From: Bacillota bacterium
Lineage (GTDB): Bacteria > Bacillota_A > Clostridia > Peptostreptococcales > Anaerovoracaceae
NCBI GenBank assembly: GCA_017457585.1
Contig: JAFTHD010000216.1
Span: 1-8,417, forward strand
Direction of reading: 5' to 3'
Length of the DNA: 8,417 bases
How positions within the stretch are numbered: position 1 is the first letter of the stretch; each line of letters begins with the position of its first letter. The translations under genes were made by a program, and so were the position numbers. Shown piece by piece: positions 1 through 8,417 of this stretch. The notes under the pieces were generated by a model that was given only the letters and a program-made list of their open reading frames with translations, was not told the origin of the DNA and did not search any database.

Positions 1-477
1 ATAATAAGCTTTCAGCGCACTTCTTATGCGAGAGAACTCCCCTTCAGGATCCGAAAAAACTTCTCCGTTTGTCGCCGTCGCCAGGAACCGTTCAGGAATA
101 CGCAGCCACTCCATATTGCTCCGCGGAACGTCGGTACAGTTGGTATACCTTGCGTAGAATCTGTCGATGGGTATAACGCCTACCCTGCCTTCTGCCTCCG
201 CCGTTTCGTGCCTTGTATATCCCTGATAGGTACCGGGAAGCGACGCATAGGCTGCCTGAAGCTGCTGGCCTATGGCCCTGGCCGTATCTCTCGTTACCCA
301 CACGCAAAATCCAGGCCCGAAGTCGTGATCCTGTGAAATTTGATCATCGTATCCGAAACACTCGGATCCTTCGCCTGCAAGTCCAAAGGCCATCTTGTCC
401 GCATAGCCCGGAAACTGTCTGCAAAGCTCGCCTGCGTATTCGTTGTAATAGGCTCTCGCCAGTTCCATTCCGTTCAT
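1..477 (-). CDS. DUF4037-like putative nucleotidyltransferase-fold protein (C-terminus cut by window edge)
   Basis: An open frame begins at the ATG at 477-475 and runs without a stop for 159 codons to the first base of the window, so only the N-terminal part is seen. The start overlaps the TGA of the upstream TPR gene in an ATGA arrangement, and an AGAGG Shine-Dalgarno (485-489) lies 7 nt before it, inside the TPR coding sequence. The protein begins MNGMELARAYYNEYAGEL. It contains GEGSE (residues 35-39), FGYDDQIS (41-48) and QDHDFGPGFCVW (49-60), which I recognise as the conserved block of the DUF4037 family of Firmicutes. G37-S38, 11 residues, then D50-H51-D52 fits the nucleotidyltransferase pattern G-S...D-x-D, in which the acidic residues bind metal. 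Catalysis is inferred from the motif only; no substrate is known to me. The family name is from memory and could be a neighbouring DUF. Tight coupling to the TPR gene suggests the two proteins work together. Confidence 0.8.
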   Translation of the reverse strand, partial: MNGMELARAYYNEYAGELCRQFPGYADKMAFGLAGEGSECFGYDDQISQDHDFGPGFCVWVTRDTARAIGQQLQAAYASLPGTYQGYTRHETAEAEGRVGVIPIDRFYARYTNCTDVPRSNMEWLRIPERFLATATNGEVFSDPEGEFSRIRSALKAYY

Positions 478-1268
478 ATCTGATCCTCTACCGTTTTAAG
501 GTTCCTTGCCATCATCTCATAAAAGGCATTCCTGCCGTAATCCCGTTCGATGAGTCCCATAGCCTTCCTGAAATACTGTGCAGCCTCCTGTGGCTTATTC
601 CAGTAATAATAGAGATTTCCCATCGCTGCTGTCGCCGCCGCATAGTGAGGATCCCGATCCCCCGATTCCAGTTCGTAAATGTTCAGGGACGCTCCCAGGG
701 TTTCCTTCGCCTCTTGGAACTTACCGAGCCTTGTCTGCACCTCTCCAAGGTTTATCAGGCTGGTCGCCATCTCCACCCTGAATTCCGGCATGGTGACGAT
801 GATTTCCAGGGACTTCAGCGCTGCTTTCTCAGCCTCTTCAAAGTTCTCCATTTCACGGTAGAGGGCGCTGATATTATTGCAGAGGGCTGCCATCCTATAA
901 TCGTTTTCGAAGCCGCGATAAACGAGTATCGACTCTGCCGTTCGGAACATCTGCAGGGCTGTGTCGTATTCATTGGCAACCATCATGACGTTTGCGCCAT
1001 TCTGGAGTGCTACCGCAAAGTTCTCGGAGGTCTCCTCCCCCATGTTCTTCAGAAGCTGCAGAACATTCTGGGACAACCGGATCGCCTCATCCACATTGCC
1101 CGACGCTCTGTAAAATCCAGCCAGCTCATTGCTCACTGCAACGATGGCTGCCGGATCGTTCTCCGTACGTGCATCGGTCAGACTCTTTATCATAAAGTTT
1201 TCCAGAGCCTTATTATCGTGCTGTGCAAAGTGCTGATCGAGTTTCTGATAAAAATCGTTTATATTCAT
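474..1268 (-). CDS. Tetratricopeptide repeat (TPR) protein
   Basis: A 264-residue, probably cytosolic protein with no signal peptide or membrane segment. It consists almost wholly of paired amphipathic helices. About five TPR units can be placed at residues 43-76, 84-117, 126-159, 167-200 and 209-242, with typical TPR positions such as NNISALYREMENFEEAEKAA and LINLGEVQTRLGKFQEAKET. TPR arrays are protein- or peptide-binding scaffolds; no catalytic motif is visible. I chose the ATG at 1268 because an AGAGG site sits 9 nt upstream (1278-1282). An in-frame ATG at 1325 would add 19 basic residues, but it has no ribosome binding site and lies at about the predicted transcription start. The stop overlaps the start of the downstream DUF4037-like gene (ATGA), so the two are translationally coupled and the TPR protein probably binds or regulates that partner. 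The pair has its own promoter and is separated from the redox operon by a terminator. Confidence 0.88.
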   Translation of the reverse strand: MNINDFYQKLDQHFAQHDNKALENFMIKSLTDARTENDPAAIVAVSNELAGFYRASGNVDEAIRLSQNVLQLLKNMGEETSENFAVALQNGANVMMVANEYDTALQMFRTAESILVYRGFENDYRMAALCNNISALYREMENFEEAEKAALKSLEIIVTMPEFRVEMATSLINLGEVQTRLGKFQEAKETLGASLNIYELESGDRDPHYAAATAAMGNLYYYWNKPQEAAQYFRKAMGLIERDYGRNAFYEMMARNLKTVEDQI

Positions 1269-1277
1269 ACGTCTTAT

Positions 1278-1282
1278 CCTCT
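1278..1282 (-). promoter_or_regulatory. Ribosome binding site fixing the TPR gene start
   Basis: AGAGG on the minus strand, 9 nt before the ATG at 1268. It decides between this start and a longer in-frame ATG at 1325, which lacks any purine-rich site. Confidence 0.7.
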
Positions 1283-1303
1283 GTTTAAGATGAAATTTGT
1301 AAT

Positions 1304-1317
1304 CGGTCAAATGACCG
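1304..1317. promoter_or_regulatory. 14-bp palindrome, candidate operator in the TPR gene leader
   Basis: CGGTCA-AA-TGACCG is a perfect 6+2+6 inverted repeat. It lies about 12-25 nt after the predicted transcription start of the TPR/DUF4037 unit and 36 nt before the ATG. That is a usual place for a roadblock-type repressor operator. It is too short and lacks a T-run, so it is not a terminator. The regulator is unknown. Confidence 0.4.
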
Positions 1318-1335
1318 TGTGACAACTTTAGAAAG

Positions 1336-1365
1336 ATTATAACACGTTTTCCTTCTCAATACCAA
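1336..1365 (-). promoter_or_regulatory. Sigma-A-type promoter of the TPR/DUF4037-like unit
   Basis: On the minus strand, TTGGTA (1365-1360) is followed by an 18-nt spacer and a perfect TATAAT (1341-1336). The -10 is preceded by TG-T, an extended -10. The predicted transcription start is near 1329, giving a leader of about 60 nt. It lies between the upstream operon's terminator and the TPR start, which supports independent transcription. The extended -10 would compensate for the imperfect -35. Confidence 0.7.
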
Positions 1366-1368
1366 ATG

Positions 1369-1386
1369 TACGCAATAAATACGCAA
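1369..1386. repeat. Phased direct repeat upstream of the TPR gene -35, candidate activator site
   Basis: On the minus strand the heptamer TTGCGTA occurs twice (1386-1380 and 1375-1369), separated by TTTA, a repeat period of 11 bp or one helical turn. The second copy ends 3 nt before the -35 at 1365. Tandem 7-mers at about 11-bp spacing next to a -35 are typical of sites bound by response-regulator dimers of the OmpR/PhoB type. The functional role is inferred; the repeat itself is seen directly. Confidence 0.4.
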
Positions 1387-1410
1387 AAAATCGGCGGTAT
1401 ATTCACAAGT

Positions 1411-1462
1411 CGGCAAAAGGAAAAGGAGCATACGCACAAATGATCGTGCGTCATGCTCCTTT
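1411..1462 (-). terminator. Intrinsic terminator of the Stn-like operon
   Basis: Fifteen bases after the stop codon of the large fusion gene, AAAGGAGCAT plus GACGCAC can pair with GTGCGT plus ATGCTCCTTT. This gives 10 + 6 base pairs interrupted by one bulged base, around an 8-nt loop (1438-1445). On the minus strand the stem is followed by a T-rich run (TCCTTTTCCTTTT including the stem end). The other strand has no comparable T-run, so the terminator acts on leftward transcription. It separates the redox operon from the TPR unit. Confidence 0.85.
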
Positions 1463-1476
1463 ATGCGCAAGTAGTT

Positions 1477-4400
1477 TTACAGCGTCGGGCTTACTGCCTT
1501 CGGGAGTCTCTCAGAAATGGTGTTCATCAGCGAGTCTGTACACGCTATCGGGTCTGCGAACTTGCTGTCCCCTACTGCGACCAGCTTTGCACCATCTGCC
1601 GGCGTAAGAACTCCGCCTAAGATCTCTCCCAACTCAGCCTTTCTGTAGGCCTCCACTTCGTAGTTCATCTCATCTGAAATATCCTCCGTACTCTCCCAGC
1701 CGTGGTCTATCTCGAAGATGTGCGCGATCTCGGAAGCCACCTGCCAGTTGGACAGTTCGATTCCTTCATCGATGGCTGCCTGAACAAGCTGAAGTCTTCT
1801 CTCGGTATTTGTGAAAGTACCGTCTACGGAAGCGAAGCCCGTTCCAGGAATGACGATGTCCGCCTTGGCAGCCAGCTCAGTCATGTGCGTATCGCATACT
1901 GCCAGGAACTCGAGGGCGTCCGTGTTGATATCCGCTTCCTCTCCGAATACGAGAAGGGCTTTCACTCCCTCAAGCTGCTCTGCTCCATCTGTGATACCCA
2001 GGTCTATAAGCCCCTGAGAGTTGTTCTTTGCCTTTAGCTGGAGGATTCCGTCGCGCGGACTTCCGATGTGACCGCTGATGAGCGCCAAATCTGCCAGCAG
2101 CGTAGCCGCATCAACCGAGATCAGGTTCTGGTTGAACACGATCATGGCCTTTCTCGCGTTGAGATAAATACCGGCCAGTTCCTTTGCATCTTCACTAACA
2201 GGAATCCCCTTGAGGCTCTCTTTCAGCTGATCGATTCCCTCGATACTGCAGTCCGGATGAGCTGCAATGGCCTCTGAAATCAGGCCTTTGACGAAATCAA
2301 GGCTGTTGTCCGTATAGTATTCCTTCTCAACGAAGTTCATGCTCTGCGGAATGCTTTCCGGGTTCACAAGGAATGCCCTGGCACCGTTATTTGTCGCATC
2401 TCTCATCTTGTTTGCGATAACAGGGTTCAGAGGTCTGTTAAATCCTACCACGAGAATCACGTCCGTTGAGAGCAGTTCATCGATGGTATTTGGCGACCCA
2501 TCGTGACCGAGCACAGGAAGGATACCGCTCTTTCTGTTGTTCAGCGAGAAGAGCTTTGCGCCCATGGCCTCGGCCATCACCTTTATGGCGTAGGCCTCTT
2601 CGTTGGTGTATCTATCGGAAATGGCAACGCCGATGGCGTCCTTGCCGTATCTCGTGCCCACTGCCTGACACTTCTTTGCAATCTTTACGAGGGCGTCGTG
2701 ATAGTCCGTCTCTACGAATGCGCCGTTCTTCTTTTCCAAAGGCTCTTCCAGCTTGTCCTCCAGCACGGAACAATCGAATCCGAACTTGCCCTTACCGCAG
2801 GAAATGCCCGCATTGACAGGCGCATTCATGTTGGCGTTGGCCTTCACCAACGTATCGCCGATGGTCTTCAATGTAAGTCCGCAACCCACGGAGCAGTAAG
2901 CGCAGGTTGTATCCGTATCCAGGGACTTGACAGGTGTCTCCTTCACCATGGTGGTCTTAACCTTGAGGGCGCCCGTAGGACATACTGCAACGCACTGTCC
3001 GCAGGACAGACAGCCTGACTCTGAGAGCGGTTTCATCATGTTCGGCATTACGACGTGATCGAAGCCTCTGTTCACACGACCCAGCGCTCCAACGCCCATT
3101 ACCTCGTCGCATACTCTGACGCAGAGTCCGCAGAGGATACACTTGTCAGGGTTTCTCTCTATGAACGGATGCTCATCGTCGAAGTCGGGGTGATTCTTCT
3201 CTCCCTTGAACCTGTCAGGATCCACATCGTAGTGATTTGCGAAGTCTATCAGCTTGCACTCGTAGTAAAGCTGGCATCCGCACTCGAGGCAGCGCATGGC
3301 TTCCTCTTCCGCCTGCTCCGGCGTAAAGCCATCAGGAATCACCTCTGAGAAGTTGTCTTTCCTGTCCTCAGGTGAAAGCTGCGGAATCACCGGTCTGCAC
3401 TCCCGTTCTCTGTCTTCAAAAGTTCTCTCCGTGATATCGTCACGTTCTACCAGGTACGGTTTCTCGTATTTGATGGGCTGTCCGTTCAGATAGCTGTCGA
3501 TTACATCGGAAGCCTTCTTCGCGTCTGCTATGGCTTCGACTGCAATGGAAATCTTATCGTTGCCGCAGTCGCCGCCTGCAAAGACGCCCGGTATGCTCGT
3601 CATGAAGGTTTCAGGGTCGTATGCGATGCCGTTCTTTCTCGTCTTATCCACGTTAAAGAAGGAGGAATCTACCGCCTGGCCGATTGCAAGGATTACCGTA
3701 TCCACCTCTAAGGTCTCCGTCTTTCCTTCAACAGGAACCGGTCTTCTTCTGCCGGACTCATCAGGCTCTCCAAGCTCCATCACCTGAAGGATCACTTCCT
3801 TCACGTGACCGTTTTCATCCTTTACGATTTCAAGAGGGTTTGTCAGGTTCTTGAAGATCACGCCTTCTTCCTCTGCCTCTTCAATCTCGATAAGGTCTGC
3901 AGGCATTTCGTCCTTCGTTCGCCTGTAGACGTTGTAGACTTCCTTTGCACCGAGTCTTACGGCGGTTCTGCAGGCGTCCATAGCCGTGTTGCCGCCGCCT
4001 ACGATGGCAACCCTGTTACCCAGGTTGATCTCTTCGTTTCTGACAACCTTTCTGAGAAAATCGATTCCGCCTATTACGCCGTCTGCGTCCTCGCCTTTGC
4101 AGCCGACGCCGGTTGAAACCCATGCTCCGATACCCAGGAGCACCGCGTCGTAGCTTCTCTGAAGTTCCTCAAAGGATATGTCAGTTCCGATTCTGAAGTT
4201 TGTTCTGATATCAACGCCTGTAGCTTCGATGGCTGCAATTTCAAGGTCCAGCACTTCCTTTGGAAGTCTGTACTCAGGAATTCCGTATCGGAGCATTCCG
4301 CCAGCCTTCGGCATGGCCTCGTAAATCGTTACGTCGTGGCCTTTTTGTCTAAGGAAGTATGCAGCGGAAAGTCCCAGAGGGCCGCCGCCTGCTATGGCCA

Positions 4401-4986
4401 CGTGCTTGCCCGTGCTCTCCTCACATTCCGGTACGAACACGTTGTCTGATCCCAGATCCTGATCTGCTGCAAATCGCTTGAGCATCTGAATTGAAATCGG
4501 CTCATCGATCAGGCCTCTTCTGCATTCCGTCTCACAAGGGTGAGGACATACTCTTCCCAGAGATGCTGGAAGCGGAATCTTGTCTTTCACCAGCTTGTTT
4601 GCCTCTTCGTACTCTCCGTTTGCAATCAGTCCTACGTATCCCTGACAGTCGGTTCCTGCAGGGCAGGCCTTTACGCAAGGGGGTCTGCAGTCACCCGAGT
4701 GGTTGGAAAGGAGCAGCTCCAGGTTCGTCTTTCTGGACTCGATTACCCTTTCCGTGTTGGTCTTTACCACCATTCCCGGTGAAATAACCGTCGCGCAGGC
4801 TTTGCAAAGCTTGTTGTTGCCTTCGACTTCAGTCATGCACAGTCCGCATGACCCGTATATTCTCGTTCTCTCGTCGTAGCAGAGGGTCGGGATGAAGATG
4901 CCGTTTTCTCTCGCTACTTCGAGAATCGTCTGGCCGGGATGCCCGGTCAGTTCTTTTCCGTTTATGTTAATTCGTAATGTTTCCAT
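1477..4986 (-). CDS. stnA: StnA-like fusion: ferredoxin + GltD/NfnB NAD(P)H-FAD module + [4Fe-4S] domains + degenerate molybdopterin-oxidoreductase domain
   Basis: This 1169-residue protein is probably the NADP(H)-side subunit of a soluble electron-bifurcating complex. Domains in order: [2Fe-2S] ferredoxin (C36, C47, C50, C64); GltD/NfnB-type Fe-S region (Cys between 100 and 114, and C147, C151, C155); FAD fold (GGGPLGL, 200-206); NAD(P)H fold (GGGNTAMD, 330-337, with YRR at 354-356 suited to the NADPH phosphate); FAD-closing GVFAGGDC (467-474); a Cys cluster (C566, C569, C571, C577); two [4Fe-4S] ferredoxin motifs (C616/619/622/626 and C659/662/665/669); and a molybdopterin-oxidoreductase-type Fe-S motif (C695, C698, C702, C730) followed by a NuoG/FdhA-like domain ending near TFTNTERR (1057-1064). 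The region where formate dehydrogenases carry Sec or Cys reads SLNNRKSG (814-821), and the C-terminal dinucleotide-binding domain is missing, so this domain is probably not a formate dehydrogenase. AGGAG overlapping the stop codon of the preceding gene lies 9 nt before the ATG. The symbol is assigned by architecture; automatic annotation may call it NuoG or FdhA. Confidence 0.85.
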   Translation of the reverse strand: METLRININGKELTGHPGQTILEVARENGIFIPTLCYDERTRIYGSCGLCMTEVEGNNKLCKACATVISPGMVVKTNTERVIESRKTNLELLLSNHSGDCRPPCVKACPAGTDCQGYVGLIANGEYEEANKLVKDKIPLPASLGRVCPHPCETECRRGLIDEPISIQMLKRFAADQDLGSDNVFVPECEESTGKHVAIAGGGPLGLSAAYFLRQKGHDVTIYEAMPKAGGMLRYGIPEYRLPKEVLDLEIAAIEATGVDIRTNFRIGTDISFEELQRSYDAVLLGIGAWVSTGVGCKGEDADGVIGGIDFLRKVVRNEEINLGNRVAIVGGGNTAMDACRTAVRLGAKEVYNVYRRTKDEMPADLIEIEEAEEEGVIFKNLTNPLEIVKDENGHVKEVILQVMELGEPDESGRRRPVPVEGKTETLEVDTVILAIGQAVDSSFFNVDKTRKNGIAYDPETFMTSIPGVFAGGDCGNDKISIAVEAIADAKKASDVIDSYLNGQPIKYEKPYLVERDDITERTFEDRERECRPVIPQLSPEDRKDNFSEVIPDGFTPEQAEEEAMRCLECGCQLYYECKLIDFANHYDVDPDRFKGEKNHPDFDDEHPFIERNPDKCILCGLCVRVCDEVMGVGALGRVNRGFDHVVMPNMMKPLSESGCLSCGQCVAVCPTGALKVKTTMVKETPVKSLDTDTTCAYCSVGCGLTLKTIGDTLVKANANMNAPVNAGISCGKGKFGFDCSVLEDKLEEPLEKKNGAFVETDYHDALVKIAKKCQAVGTRYGKDAIGVAISDRYTNEEAYAIKVMAEAMGAKLFSLNNRKSGILPVLGHDGSPNTIDELLSTDVILVVGFNRPLNPVIANKMRDATNNGARAFLVNPESIPQSMNFVEKEYYTDNSLDFVKGLISEAIAAHPDCSIEGIDQLKESLKGIPVSEDAKELAGIYLNARKAMIVFNQNLISVDAATLLADLALISGHIGSPRDGILQLKAKNNSQGLIDLGITDGAEQLEGVKALLVFGEEADINTDALEFLAVCDTHMTELAAKADIVIPGTGFASVDGTFTNTERRLQLVQAAIDEGIELSNWQVASEIAHIFEIDHGWESTEDISDEMNYEVEAYRKAELGEILGGVLTPADGAKLVAVGDSKFADPIACTDSLMNTISERLPKAVSPTL

Positions 4987-4998
4987 GGCACCTCTCTC

Positions 4999-6747
4999 CT
5001 ACTTCTTGATGATCGCATTCTTCGGGCAGGACTCGATGCACTTGCCGCACTTAATGCATTTATCGTGATCAATAACGTGAAGTTCTTTAACGTTGCCTGT
5101 AATGGCGTCCACAGGGCAGTTTCTCTTGCACTTGGTGCATCCGATACAGTCCTCTGTGATGTTAAAGGTGATGAGTGCCTTGCAGGAACCTGCGGTACAC
5201 TTCTTATGGAAGATGTGATCCTCGTACTCGTTTCTGAAGTACTGGAGCGTGGTGAGAATCGGGTTCGGTGCAGTCTGACCGAGACCGCAAAGTGAACCGT
5301 CCTTGATCTTGTTAGCCAGTTCTTCCAGCAGTTCTATGTCGCCTTCCTTCCCTTTGCCCTCCGTAATCCGCTCCAGGATTTCGAGCATTCTCTTCGTGCC
5401 GATTCTGCAGTAGTTGCACTTACCGCAGGACTCGTCTCTCGTAAAGTTGAGGAAGTACCTGGCCATGTCCACCATGCAGGTGTCCTCATCCATGACGATC
5501 ATTCCGCCCGATCCTACGATTGCACCGGTCTTGTTGATATCTTCATAGGTTACAGGTGTATCAATGAGCTCTGCAGGAATACATCCGCCGGATGGTCCAC
5601 CCATCTGAACGGCTTTAAATTCCCTGTTCTTCTTGATACCTCCGCCGATTCCGAAGATAACGTCCTTGAGCGTCAGCCCCATCGGCACCTCTACGAGGCC
5701 GCCCTTTTCGATCTTGCCTGCGAGGGCGAAGACCTTGGTACCTTTGCTCTTCTGTGTACCAAAATCTCCGAAGGCTTTGCCTCCGTTGTAGATGATCCAT
5801 GGAACGTTGGCGAGAGTCTCAACGTTGTTGATGTCGGTAGGCTTCTGCCAGTATCCTCTCTCAGCAGGGAAAGGCGGCTTCAGTCTCGGCATTCCTCTCT
5901 CTCCTTCAAGAGACGCGATGAGCGCCGTTTCCTCGCCGCATACGAAAGCGCCTGCGCCGGCTTTGATCCTCAGGTCGAAGCTAAATCCGCTTCCTAAGAT
6001 GTTGTCTCCGAGGAATCCTCTTTCTCTCGCCTGAGCCATTGCGATTTCAAGCCTCTTGATGGCCAGTGGATACTCTGCACGGCAGTAGATAACGCCCTCT
6101 GCTGCTCCCATAGCATATCCGCCGATGATCATTCCTTCTATGAGGGAATGAGGGTCGCCTTCAAGAACGGATCTGTCCATGAATGCTCCCGGATCTCCTT
6201 CGTCCGCGTTGCACACCAGGTACTTGGTAACCCCCGGGCTTCTGTAGGCAGCATTCCACTTGAACCACGTCGGGAATCCGGCGCCGCCTCTTCCCCTCAG
6301 GCCTGATACCTTGATCTCTCTGATAACATCATCCGGGCTCATGGTCTTGAGCACTTTGTCTATAGCCTTGTATCCGTCTGCTGCTATGTATTCGTCTATG
6401 TTTTCAGGATCGATAACGCCGCAGTTTCTGAGAACGATTCTCTGCTGCTTTGAAATGAATTCCTTATCGTCGTCGGTAATGGCCTGCTCTGCTACTACCT
6501 GCCCGTTTGTAAGGTGGCTTTCAACAATCTGCTCCACCTTGTCAGGCTGAACTTTCACGTATCTTGTAATTGCACCGTCGTCTCCGTATACGTCTACGAT
6601 CGGCTCCAGATAACAAGTTCCTACGCACCCTGTAACGCCAACCTTTACATCGAGATTCTTCTCAGCTATGAGCTCTTCAAATCTCGCAGCCGTCTTTTTT
6701 GCTCCGGTGGCAACGCCGCAGCTTCCCTGTCCAACTACAACTTTCAT
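4999..6747 (-). CDS. stnB: NuoF/HydB-like NADH-binding flavin and Fe-S subunit (StnB-like)
   Basis: This 582-residue cytosolic subunit should bind NAD(H) and FMN and, by homology with HydB/HndC, hold the flavin where electrons are bifurcated. An N-terminal thioredoxin-like [2Fe-2S] domain has C10, C41 and C45. The NuoF core has the glycine-rich GLRGRGGAGF (149-158), CNADEGDPGAF (179-189) and FVCGEETALI (268-277) motifs of the NADH/FMN site. A [4Fe-4S] cluster is ligated by C441, C444, C447 (SCGKCNYC) and C487. A C-terminal two-cluster ferredoxin (C534/537/540/544 and C564/567/570/574) is typical of HydB-type soluble enzymes and absent from classical complex I NuoF. An extra C517/C522 pair precedes it. 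The start overlaps the stop of the preceding gene (ATGA), with AGGAGG 7 nt upstream (6755-6760). The next gene starts 12 nt after its TAG stop. The NuoF/HydB assignment is firm; the Stn name follows from the third gene. Confidence 0.93.
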   Translation of the reverse strand: MKVVVGQGSCGVATGAKKTAARFEELIAEKNLDVKVGVTGCVGTCYLEPIVDVYGDDGAITRYVKVQPDKVEQIVESHLTNGQVVAEQAITDDDKEFISKQQRIVLRNCGVIDPENIDEYIAADGYKAIDKVLKTMSPDDVIREIKVSGLRGRGGAGFPTWFKWNAAYRSPGVTKYLVCNADEGDPGAFMDRSVLEGDPHSLIEGMIIGGYAMGAAEGVIYCRAEYPLAIKRLEIAMAQARERGFLGDNILGSGFSFDLRIKAGAGAFVCGEETALIASLEGERGMPRLKPPFPAERGYWQKPTDINNVETLANVPWIIYNGGKAFGDFGTQKSKGTKVFALAGKIEKGGLVEVPMGLTLKDVIFGIGGGIKKNREFKAVQMGGPSGGCIPAELIDTPVTYEDINKTGAIVGSGGMIVMDEDTCMVDMARYFLNFTRDESCGKCNYCRIGTKRMLEILERITEGKGKEGDIELLEELANKIKDGSLCGLGQTAPNPILTTLQYFRNEYEDHIFHKKCTAGSCKALITFNITEDCIGCTKCKRNCPVDAITGNVKELHVIDHDKCIKCGKCIESCPKNAIIKK

Positions 6748-7268
6748 TCTGCCACCTCCTCTCTCGATTTGATTTCATCGAGAATTTCCTTGACCTTTGT
6801 CTTTGTCAGGTTACCGTACGTCTCATCGCCGTCAGCGTTCTTTACCATCATGACAGGAGCCAGTGAGCAACATCCCAGACATGCCACATTATTCAGTGTG
6901 AAAACGCCGTCTTCCGTCGTCTCTCCGTCAGCTATTCCAAGGTGCTCATTTATGGCTTCCTCGATGAGCTGAGACCCGTTCACGTGACAGGCTGTTCCCT
7001 GACAAAGCATGATCAGATTTTTGCCTACAGGCTGCAGTCTGAACTGTGCGTAGAACGTAGCCACTCCGTAAATTTTGGCAGGCATGATTCCCGTCACTTC
7101 AGAAATGTAATTGATAGCATCAACGGAGAGATATCCGTAGATGTCCTGGGTCTTCTGAAGAATGGTGATAAGGCTGCCCGGTACGTTGGCGTACTGCTCA
7201 AGCACAGGTGCAAGATCAGTGAATTTGGCTGCCCTTGCCTCCTCGCAGTTACAACCGCCTTTACTCAT
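6744..7268 (-). CDS. stnC: NuoE/HndA-like [2Fe-2S] thioredoxin-fold subunit (StnC-like)
   Basis: This 174-residue subunit passes electrons to or from the flavin subunit encoded next to it. It has the full NuoE family layout: a helical N-terminal region (about 15-75, including the conserved IYGVATFYAQF at 66-76) and a thioredoxin-like domain binding one [2Fe-2S] cluster through C89, C94, C130 and C134 (CQGTAC and CLGCCSLAP). Length is normal for the family. An additional CNC (C6, C8) near the N-terminus is outside the conserved domain. The ATG at 7268 has an AGGAGG site 8 nt upstream (7277-7282). The gene is first in its operon and overlaps the next by 4 nt, so the two subunits are probably made in equal amounts. 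HndA of NADP-reducing hydrogenases, HydC and complex I NuoE all look alike at this level; the choice of Stn depends on the third gene. Confidence 0.93.
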   Translation of the reverse strand: MSKGGCNCEEARAAKFTDLAPVLEQYANVPGSLITILQKTQDIYGYLSVDAINYISEVTGIMPAKIYGVATFYAQFRLQPVGKNLIMLCQGTACHVNGSQLIEEAINEHLGIADGETTEDGVFTLNNVACLGCCSLAPVMMVKNADGDETYGNLTKTKVKEILDEIKSREEVAE

Positions 7269-7280
7269 ATTTATTTCCTC

Positions 7281-7316
7281 CTAACTCATAACAGGTTTAA
7301 CGTTCCTATTAGTTAA
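7281..7316 (-). promoter_or_regulatory. Possible leader hairpin just before the ribosome binding site of the redox operon
   Basis: In the minus-strand RNA, UUAACU-AAUAGG can pair with CCUGUU-AUG-AGUUAG. This gives two 6-bp helices (each with one G-U pair) separated by a 3-nt AUG bulge, with a 9-nt loop (7296-7304). The base of the stem takes in the first two bases of the AGGAGG site (7277-7282). It could modulate translation or stabilise the mRNA 5' end. It has no T-run and matches no riboswitch class I recognise. Confidence 0.3.
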
Positions 7317-7317
7317 A

Positions 7318-7347
7318 ATAATAACATGCGCTGTGTGCGTTAGGCAA
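7318..7347 (-). promoter_or_regulatory. Secondary candidate promoter of the redox operon
   Basis: On the minus strand, TTGCCT (7347-7342), an 18-nt spacer, and TATTAT (7323-7318) preceded by TGT (extended -10). It lies downstream of the Rex-like site and would give a leader of about 45 nt. It is weaker than the upstream candidate at the -10 but better at the -35. Confidence 0.35.
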
Positions 7348-7354
7348 CACGAAC

Positions 7355-7382
7355 ATTATAACGATTTGAAACATTGTTGAAT
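7355..7382 (-). promoter_or_regulatory. Main candidate promoter of the redox operon
   Basis: A perfect TATAAT lies at 7360-7355 on the minus strand. The best -35 at 16-nt spacing is ATTCAA (7382-7377), a poor match to TTGACA. A weak -35 overlapped by an inverted repeat (7374-7391) suggests a regulated promoter. The predicted start near 7348 gives a leader of about 80 nt. The holA terminator just upstream makes a separate promoter necessary for this operon. Confidence 0.55.
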
Positions 7383-7391
7383 GCTCAAAAA
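7374..7391. promoter_or_regulatory. Candidate Rex (redox-sensing repressor) operator
   Basis: On the plus strand TTGTTGA-ATGC-TCAAAAA is an 18-bp inverted repeat of 7-4-7 with a single mismatch between the arms. It follows the layout of the known clostridial Rex operator, TTGTTAA-N4-TTAACAA, matching 6 of 7 positions on the left and 5 of 7 on the right. It overlaps the -35 region of the predicted operon promoter. Rex releases DNA when NADH is high and commonly controls NADH-linked fermentative and hydrogenase genes, so the position and target gene type agree. The regulator gene is not in the window. Confidence 0.5.
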
Positions 7392-7399
7392 TTATGCGC

Positions 7400-7434
7400 G
7401 AAAAAGCGCGTGTATTTTTGTCGATACACGCGCT
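7400..7434 (-). terminator. Intrinsic terminator after holA
   Basis: AGCGCGTGTAT (7434-7424 on the minus strand) pairs perfectly with ATACACGCGCT (7415-7405). This is an 11-bp, GC-rich stem with an 8-nt loop, followed at once by TTTTT. It starts 44 nt after the holA stop codon and faces leftward. It separates holA transcription from the redox operon. Nothing else is seen between 7435 and 7478. Confidence 0.92.
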
Positions 7435-7478
7435 ACGATCTGGTTATTGATTTCAATGATTTGTTAATAATTTAGCAT

Positions 7479-8417
7479 TTAATTGTTTGAAATATAGTAT
7501 TCAAGAGCCAGTTTCGGTTCGAAGATTCCCCTTTTTACGTTGCCGTCTATTTCGTATGCTCCCGTGAGCATGTGCTTTATCATCTCAGAAGAGATGTTCT
7601 TTGACACCTGCATCGCCTTCTTCACCCTGAATTCCGGAATGCTCCTGCCCTTTCTTCCTGCTGACTCGAGATCACCTGCAATCTTTGAAATATCCTGCAG
7701 AACACGTCCGTCATCTGACATTTCTTTGACATAGAGAATCAGCTCAAGTTGCCTTACGATCATGGCCTGAATCATAAAGGGATCCACCTTCGCATCGAAG
7801 AGATTGTGGAGCATTTCAAGGGCGTCGCCTTTTCTGTTTCTGGATACGCTGTCAAGCAACGAGAATATGTTATTCTCCGGGTTGGTGCTTATTACAGCCC
7901 TCGCATCCTCCGCCGTTATCTCGGTTTCCCCTGCGTATGCCGCCAGCTTCTTAAGATCGTTATCCAGATTATAAAGCGTGTAGTCTATATATTTGTTACC
8001 GTATCCGCTCTCAGCTATTATGCTGCTCACAAGAGACGGCCTGTAGCCCTTCCCTGTCGCCTTCAGCCGCTTTTCTATAAATCCTCTGAGCAGGCTGTCG
8101 TCAAGGGGTTGGAAATCGTAAATGCTCCCGTTTTTTGCCTCCTTGATAGCCTTTCTGACAGGCGGAAGCTTGCTTTTTCCTTCCGTTTCTCCCGACGTGA
8201 ATATGAGGAGCGTGCTTTCAGGGACACCTGCACCCTTTGAAAGGTACTCCGTCAGATCTTTGATCTCACTTTCACCGAAGCCCCTTATCTTGCCTCCGTC
8301 TGCCGGTAGAAAATCAGGAACCAGCACCACTTTGCGCTCTGACATCATGGCTAATGTCTCACAGGACTCGATGATGTTCTGTGCGCTCAGATTATCGCCG
8401 CTTATGGTAACCATGTC
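7479..8417 (-). CDS. holA: DNA polymerase III delta subunit (clamp loader), N-terminus outside the window
   Basis: The delta subunit opens the beta sliding clamp as part of the clamp-loader complex at the replication fork. The visible 312 codons run from the window edge to a TAA. An ATG at 8414 is unlikely to be the start: the frame stays open to the edge, and the segment after it (ISGDNLSAQNIIESCETLAM, then MSERKVVLVPDF) is the internal block normally found roughly 50 residues into HolA, which is usually about 330-345 residues long. Other HolA-like features are LLIFTSG, the helical region around YIDYTLYNLDNDLKKLAAYA (domain II), and the C-terminal domain with NIFSLLDSV and PFMIQAMIVRQLELILYVK, ending KLALEYYISNN. 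The family has an AAA+ fold without a working P-loop, and none is seen. The gene is followed by a strong terminator. Confidence 0.92.
   Translation of the reverse strand, partial: DMVTISGDNLSAQNIIESCETLAMMSERKVVLVPDFLPADGGKIRGFGESEIKDLTEYLSKGAGVPESTLLIFTSGETEGKSKLPPVRKAIKEAKNGSIYDFQPLDDSLLRGFIEKRLKATGKGYRPSLVSSIIAESGYGNKYIDYTLYNLDNDLKKLAAYAGETEITAEDARAVISTNPENNIFSLLDSVSRNRKGDALEMLHNLFDAKVDPFMIQAMIVRQLELILYVKEMSDDGRVLQDISKIAGDLESAGRKGRSIPEFRVKKAMQVSKNISSEMIKHMLTGAYEIDGNVKRGIFEPKLALEYYISNN

Follow-up and report, generated by a model that had tools for sequence, protein, structure and literature searches.

A predicted StnABC-type transhydrogenase of a clostridial bacterium, and relatives that apparently carry an intact formate dehydrogenase domain

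The three genes and their products

The 8,417-nucleotide stretch analysed here (Bacillota bacterium, assembly GCA_017457585.1, contig JAFTHD010000216.1, positions 1–8,417; hereafter the window) carries on its minus strand three genes that probably encode an electron-bifurcating transhydrogenase of the Stn type. We designate them stnA (6744–7268), stnB (4999–6747), and stnC (1477–4986); their products have 174, 582, and 1169 residues. The reading frames of stnA and stnB share 4 nt, and a gap of 12 nt lies between stnB and stnC. An earlier note, made from the DNA letters, had described a three-gene operon with NuoE-like, HydB/NuoF-like, and GltD-in-NuoG-scaffold subunits, and the open reading frames (ORFs) and Pfam matches agree with this description.

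According to Pfam and PDB matches, StnA is the HydC/NuoE/BfuC-like subunit (2Fe-2S thioredoxin-like family PF01257, 1e-49), with one predicted [2Fe-2S] cluster at Cys89, Cys94, Cys130, and Cys134. StnB, the HydB/NuoF/BfuB-like subunit by Pfam, PDB matches, and its tree, includes the families Complex1_51K, NADH_4Fe-4S, and 4Fe-4S dicluster (PF01512 and PF10589 matched), with an FMN/NAD site and a ferredoxin-like C-terminal domain. StnC corresponds to the BfuA subunit of Nfn-Bfu according to Pfam, PDB matches, and a cysteine map; it matched Fer2_4, Fer4_20, Pyr_redox_2, dicluster ferredoxin, Molybdop_Fe4S4, and Molybdopterin. Its four parts are (i) a [2Fe-2S] ferredoxin-like domain (residues 1–101, 4684–4986; PF13510) with Cys36, Cys47, Cys50, and Cys64; (ii) a GltD/NfnB-like FAD and NADP(H) module (residues 102–565, 3292–4683; PF14691 and PF07992); (iii) a CLECGC...C motif followed by a 2x[4Fe-4S] ferredoxin (residues 566–682, 2941–3291; Pfam and cysteine map); and (iv) an FdhF-like domain (residues 683–1169, 1480–2940; PF04879 and PF00384, without PF01568) in which one [4Fe-4S] motif is kept.

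Comparison with the Sporomusa ovata StnABC complex (Sporomusa type Nfn; PDB 8oh5/8oh9; PMC7483475, PMC10482914) revealed the same subunits, domain order, and motif cysteines. (i) The StnC proteins are similar in length (1172 residues in S. ovata), and every StnC motif cysteine of the window (36, 47, 50, and 64; 100, 104, and 108; 114; 147, 151, and 155; 566, 569, 571, and 577; 616, 619, 622, and 626; 659, 662, 665, and 669; 695, 698, 702, and 730) pairs with an S. ovata cysteine, the unpaired cysteine positions lying outside the motifs; (ii) the GltD module has a GGGNTA motif (GxGxxA type), Cys114, Lys170, and Arg240, all three residues being shared with S. ovata (where the arginine is Arg239) and the first two being invariant across 28 aligned rows; (iii) the StnB cysteines of S. 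ovata are all kept except Cys210, which is a glycine in the window, and S. ovata Glu184 and Asp186 are kept as Glu183 and Asp185. The grouping of cysteines into motifs is our own reading and not that of a ligand table, and the StnA cysteines were read from its own sequence. Mapping of the cysteines on S. ovata StnB and StnC, combined with the cofactor inventory of PMC10482914, leads us to expect 12 Fe–S clusters, namely 7 in StnC, 4 in StnB (three [4Fe-4S] and one [2Fe-2S]), and 1 in StnA, plus FAD and FMN. The previous estimate had been about 11 clusters, with about 7 in the fusion protein and 4 to 5 in the other two subunits. The BfuBC core is complete in sequence: the FMN site, the [2Fe-2S] sites, and the C-terminal 2x[4Fe-4S] ferredoxin domain of StnB are all present.

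Assignment to the Stn family and the proposed reaction

We assign the three genes, with a probability of about 0.93, to a known and characterised type of enzyme, the cytoplasmic, flavin-based electron-bifurcating transhydrogenase StnABC (Nfn-Bfu type). The PDB matches point to this assignment for all three subunits: StnC matched 9bov_A (1060 bits, residues 2–1101) and S. ovata 8oh5_C (1010 bits, residues 2–1088) ahead of 9n5u_A of NfnABC (649 bits), NfnB (301 bits), and formate dehydrogenase (FDH; 245.5 bits); StnB matched 8oh5_B (907 bits) and 9bov ahead of 9n5u, and HydB reached 733 bits; and StnA matched 9bov_C (198 bits) and 8oh5_A (180 bits). Identity to S. ovata is 68% for StnB (578 positions) and 47.4% for StnC (1066 aligned positions; the S. 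ovata StnC used here stops at residue 1084 of 1172), the latter being divided into 54% for residues 1–676 and 36% beyond them, as far as this S. ovata sequence extends. In 9bov/9bp5, which hold the best match of both StnC and StnA, the corresponding chain is a “Molybdopterin oxidoreductase” of 1178 residues, 57% identical to the window across 684 positions in the N-terminal part of StnC; a literature search by the code 9BOV gave no relevant paper.

The trees, all of them quick trees, agree with the PDB matches and the diagnostic residues in placing the window where the earlier note had put it. The StnB tree (53 rows) places the window within a group of 44 Stn/Nfn-Bfu rows, split from 9 HydB-like rows taken from relative genomes (support 98). 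In the FdhF-domain tree (37 rows), the window joins S. ovata, 9bov, and 15 relatives in a single clade (support 100) away from the FDHs; a grouping of the fusion protein with active FDHs, which the note had named as the outcome that would speak against the Stn type, was not seen. Relatives are abundant: of 7992 candidates scored, 6340 reach E ≤ 1e-3, the best 120 of these having 74–81% identity at 99–100% query coverage, and stnA, stnB, and stnC are all present in 69 of the 80 genome loci kept. With so many relatives and so many loci holding all three genes, the gene set is not a product of chance. Between the window and the nearest relative locus (L001), dN is 0.04, 0.10, 0.16, and 0.18 from the N- to the C-terminal domains of StnC; dN/dS by domain for this pair was discarded as unusable, dS being saturated (1.4–2.8). 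On this evidence, the window enzyme is a further member of the known Stn family and ordinary as a discovery.

Several points weigh against this assignment or the physiology attached to it. NCBIfam offers no model named for the complex: StnA passes the cut-off as NuoE, and the 25 StnC matches displayed, out of 70, each fall short of theirs. Statements on host metabolism rest on relatives, the nearest being the genomes G001 and G002. Since nfnAB is present, NADPH in these relatives may come mainly from a source other than Stn.

Other identities were compared with the same data. A (bifurcating) FDH, in which the molybdopterin domain of the third subunit oxidizes formate, would fit the PF00384 and PF04879 matches of StnC and the FDH chains among its PDB matches (245.5 bits), and relatives hold such proteins with an intact-looking FDH domain. 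By contrast, the window domain lacks the catalytic Cys/selenocysteine (Sec)-His, at whose place the alignment has a 7-residue gap; a lysine replaces the arginine of the FDH motif PLRGQNNVQG; Molydop_binding (PF01568) is absent from the 20 Pfam families listed for StnC; and the domain clusters with the inert one of S. ovata, apart from FDHs. The NCBIfam formate dehydrogenase model reached 197 bits on the window against a cut-off of 666. We rejected this identity, which is scarcely credible with the Sec/Cys-His, the arginine, and the molybdopterin guanine dinucleotide-binding C-terminal domain all missing. The FdhF-like domain of the window is predicted to be a catalytically dead structural arm, as in S. 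ovata. The FeFe hydrogenase HydABC, whose core is homologous to StnAB (HydB, 733 bits), was rejected as well: the H-cluster domain (PF02906/PF02256) is absent from the 20 families listed for StnC, and StnB falls in a separate clade. The note's statement that neither an FeFe hydrogenase nor an active FDH domain is present therefore stands.

NfnAB (NfnSL) shares the GltD-type FAD/NADPH module (301 bits) and the overall reaction with Stn, but its FAD itself bifurcates, whereas the HydBC-like core bifurcates in Stn (PMC10482914). It was rejected on two grounds: no NfnA was found among the five window proteins scanned, and the window has Lys170, as in S. ovata StnC, where NfnB has a glutamate (PMC10482914). 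A related non-bifurcating NADPH oxidoreductase, either an Nso/Sfr-like sulfur or metal reductase or a plain diaphorase, is improbable; NsoC of Thermococcus litoralis shares both domain types (PMC7483475), but the StnAB core of the window is complete, including the two [4Fe-4S] motifs at the StnB C-terminus, and the nearest relatives with an established function belong to the Stn/Nfn-Bfu complexes. Nfn-Bfu, which is clade 53 of the Bfu family, combines a BfuBC core with an NADP(H)/FAD BfuA, as the window does, and NADPH-dependent, NAD+-requiring ferredoxin reduction was demonstrated for Nfn-Bfu of Thermococcus sibiricus (PMC9304861). T. sibiricus is probably the source of 9n5u, whose BfuA is shorter than window StnC (963 residues) and lacks some of its ferredoxin-domain cysteines.

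The StnABC assignment carries a mechanism with it. Gene order, homology, cysteines and other residues, and loss of the FDH site were seen in the window; the electron path and the reaction were measured in S. ovata (PMC7483475, PMC10482914) and would apply to the window by homology. The GltD/NfnB NADP(H)-FAD module predicted earlier is present, with the correction that its FAD is the non-bifurcating flavin, bifurcation being assigned to the FMN and the StnAB clusters (PMC10482914). In the proposed path, the GltD module of StnC would exchange hydride between NADP(H) and FAD, and single electrons would pass through the StnC Fe–S clusters to the FMN in StnB. The FMN and the [2Fe-2S] clusters of StnA and StnB would exchange electrons with NAD(H), and ferredoxin (Fd) would be reached through the ferredoxin-like C-terminus of StnB. 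The net reaction would be NADH + 2 Fd(red) + 2 NADP+ + H+ <=> NAD+ + 2 Fd(ox) + 2 NADPH.

The usual cellular ratios favour NADP+ reduction, and we infer, as we do for the physiology, that the likely net direction in the host is NADPH formation for biosynthesis. The same complex might instead run in the bifurcating direction, oxidizing NADPH to supply NADH and reduced ferredoxin for Rnf or a hydrogenase, with NADPH being made by NfnAB or other enzymes. S. ovata Stn runs both ways (PMC10482914). Among 19 relative genomes, an NfnA–NfnB pair is present in 11 (in the 3 read further it follows a gene for a pyruvate:ferredoxin oxidoreductase (PFOR)-like protein), rnfC is above cut-off in 13, and a group A FeFe hydrogenase is above cut-off in 15. 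The reversed direction is nevertheless the less likely one given the cellular ratios, and sequence cannot tell the direction.

The C-terminal arm of StnC among relatives

The window alone adds little; interest comes from its relatives, and the new part is that some of these apparently have an intact FDH in place of the dead arm. The longest StnC type was matched at E ≤ 1e-120 in 191 of 349 family genomes, and among the matches listed most have about 1150–1200 residues, like the window. Variant stnABC operons were confirmed where the contig permits. In S. ovata, the C1/C2 branch was described as a non-functional remnant, and its exact role as one that “is not clearly understood”; neither C1/C2 nor the FdhF domain lies on the electron path, yet they are required for assembly, and deletion of the FdhF domain is reported to have given no active complex (PMC10482914). 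This result contrasts with at least three complete natural stnABC operons (loci L121, L122, and L123 in genomes G057, G129, and G034) whose StnC of 679–708 residues has no FdhF domain; some further genomes gave similar scores.

Two types of relatives have a live-looking domain. In the first type, the complete stnABC operons of L115 (G123; stnC at 296–4366, minus strand) and L116 (G050; 5171–9241, plus strand) encode a StnC of 1356 residues; in both, the FDH active site reads ARL-C-H, and the lysine of CVKG and the arginine of PLRGQNNVQG are present. The Pfam scan of L115 found PF00384 (289 bits) and PF01568; the FDH part of this protein shares about 60% identity with FDHs of some 890–900 residues and 34% with the window domain, and the ferredoxin domain of StnB, checked in L115, is kept. 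We regard this type as a candidate formate/NADP/NAD/ferredoxin enzyme. In the second type, L118 (G102; 5521–13998, plus strand) and L164 (G341), StnC-FDH is interrupted by a single in-frame TGA codon, which falls precisely on the catalytic residue. About 100 nt downstream, both have a tRNA-Sec gene (72.5 bits), followed in L118 by a selA-like gene (identified by eye), and selB is above cut-off on the same contig in both genomes. The catalytic residue is thus probably selenocysteine, which would make the pair a candidate selenoprotein form of the Stn complex; stretches of 46 nt (z 0.16) and 61 nt (z 1.03) 3' of the L118 TGA folded no better than chance and revealed no Sec insertion element. StnB of G102 and G341 has no C-terminal ferredoxin domain, and ferredoxin may therefore not be a partner of this pair. 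In both genomes, the contig also encodes another StnC, of the window type; that of G102 (L118, 845–4292, plus strand) has a broken reading frame (862 + 268 residues).

Intermediate states were also found. The catalytic place is taken by asparagine in G044 and alanine in G090, and the domain is shortened in G041, G342, G110, and G021 (964–1000 residues; the operon was seen in three of the four). StnC proteins of 844 (G095) and 756 residues (G113) fall elsewhere in the tree. Five further database proteins (P0123–P0127, 1362–1374 residues) join a GltD part to an intact-looking FDH part with Cys, which argues that StnC with an intact FDH is not one assembly error.

In a tree of the StnC N-terminal part, the live, substituted, and shortened forms (G123/G050, G102/G341, G044/G090, and G041/G342/G110/G021) and P0123–P0127 form one clade of 15 of the 68 rows (support 99), which sits inside the clostridial Stn proteins. 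The 68 rows are a chosen part of 117 distinct StnC-like sequences among 137 found, and include the window, the 5 database proteins, 3 PDB chains, and 2 read-through rows, with long branches flagged. In the FdhF-domain tree, the FDH domains of this clade group with ordinary FDHs; the L118b row was untrimmed at its N-terminus there, and the trimmed L164 row (98% identical) adjoins it. An N-terminal part inside Stn with an FDH domain among ordinary FDHs suggests that a dead domain was replaced by a live one and then decayed anew. Alternatively, the clade retained an ancestral FDH domain, the degenerate StnCs (with S. ovata and 9bov) forming a clade that excludes it. On StnB this topology was rejected by an approximately unbiased (AU) test (p-AU 0.0375, or 0.0007 once the long L118b row was also omitted); 0.0375 comes from a repeat without the FdhF-less and 9n5u rows, which a first test (p-AU 0.022) had also forced out. 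The same topology was not rejected by the StnC N-terminal data (p-AU 0.151; 3 FdhF-less rows and the T. sibiricus-type row omitted). Against replacement, the StnB tree splits the FDH clade (3 changes). Retention is thus disfavoured by StnB and not rejected by StnC; each of these tests compared two quick trees, and the groups were defined once the trees had been inspected.

At even odds, the FdhF arm would be an exchangeable catalytic slot, in which a working FDH (Cys or Sec) replaced the dead domain or remained in one clade and then decayed (Asn, Ala, shortened). Such an enzyme would couple formate/CO2 with both NADP(H) and NAD(H) in a single complex, and also with ferredoxin if the ferredoxin domain of StnB is retained (the G123 and G050 type); the window would represent the long-dead state, and C1/C2 the wire of a former formate branch. 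The natural series of no domain, dead domain (as in the window), live-looking domain, and stages between makes the role of FdhF and C1/C2 directly testable. Fdh-Bfu and Nfn-Bfu have been treated as separate kinds, next to a bifunctional FdhFeFe-Bfu, and the passages on these kinds describe no BfuA with both NADP(H) and formate sites (PMC9304861); no StnC-FDH chimera is named in the excerpts given by full-text literature listings. As a separate observation, a StnC-like ferredoxin-GltD module is fused to an FeFe hydrogenase H-cluster domain in L125 (G090; 4180–7725, minus strand; PF02906 and PF02256 matched) and in L126 (G123; outside that scan), with no StnA or StnB found in the stretch fetched for either.

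Host genomes and neighbouring genes

The nearest genomes are metagenome-assembled genomes of uncultured Clostridia, with StnC identities of 81% (L001, G001) and 79% (L002, G002). Because Anaerovorax odorimutans DSM 5092 (L040, G018) is in the same family set as G001, the host probably belongs to Anaerovoracaceae; it would be a gut, fermenting, clostridial bacterium that is apparently not an acetogen. Acetyl-CoA synthase (PF03598) was found in 1 of the 19 relative genomes, that of Blautia schinkii (L048, G019), and in none of the other 18, all of G001's family, which sets these relatives apart from S. ovata. Formyl-tetrahydrofolate synthetase was found in 17 of the 19 and not in G001 or G011. 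Genome completeness of the relatives is unreported, so these absences are soft.

Acetoanaerobium sticklandii and the Alkaliphilus and Caldicellulosiruptor species are non-acetogens. These names stand in Table 1 of PMC7483475, which reports Stn clusters in Firmicutes, Proteobacteria, and Synergistetes; the suggestion that a non-acetogenic host would imply a new role is thus superseded, Stn outside acetogens being already published. In the family of the nearest relative, 62 of 119 genomes have a StnC match at E ≤ 1e-150. In all 11 genomes with an NfnB-like protein (TIGR01316 above cut-off), G001 and G002 included, an NfnA-like gene lies directly upstream, so Stn and Nfn, as judged from these genes, coexist. 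A near mutual exclusion of Stn and Nfn, with two named exceptions, was reported in acetogens (PMC7483475); a clostridial family with frequent Stn, frequent NfnAB, and acetyl-CoA synthase in 0 of 18 genomes is contrary to that pattern. In L156 (G001), L157 (G002), and L158 (G014), nfnAB lies directly 3' of the PFOR-like gene (identified by eye) and of a polyferredoxin-like gene of 430–435 codons.

On the minus strand of the window, the gene order is holA, stnA, stnB, stnC, and a tetratricopeptide repeat (TPR) protein gene. A ribosome-binding site (AGGAGG, 7277–7282, by direct reading) lies 8 nt 5' of the stnA ATG. Two minus-strand hairpins are likely terminators: one followed by a T run 3' of holA (7405–7434; z -3.1) and one with a T-rich tail 3' of stnC (1422–1462; z -6.5), none of 200 shuffles being as good in either case. 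Given the hairpin after holA, stnA-stnB-stnC looks like one transcription unit of its own, and co-transcription with holA was rejected. A promoter-like site (7347–7318, minus strand; TTGCCT-18-TATTAT with TG ahead of the second hexamer) is a weak pattern match and no better than chance (4 sites in the region, 5.1 expected).

The holA gene (7479–8414, by Pfam/NCBIfam scan) is probably cut by the window end, the L001 homologue having up to 368 residues. It was found beside stn in 35 of the 80 loci, counted within the fetched stretch, where many contigs end early; with the terminator between them in the window, holA is probably a recurrent but unlinked neighbour. The TPR protein gene after stnC (474–1289 or 474–1325, minus strand; ORF and family scan) has an 84% identical homologue in the same place in L001 alone among the 80 loci. 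Elsewhere in the relatives (L160, G001, 663–4237, minus strand; also L109 and L110), an FeFe hydrogenase lies beside a 619-residue protein that apparently consists of a NuoF-like Fe–S part and a GltD module, an arrangement that resembles the “glutamate synthase-linked” group A2.

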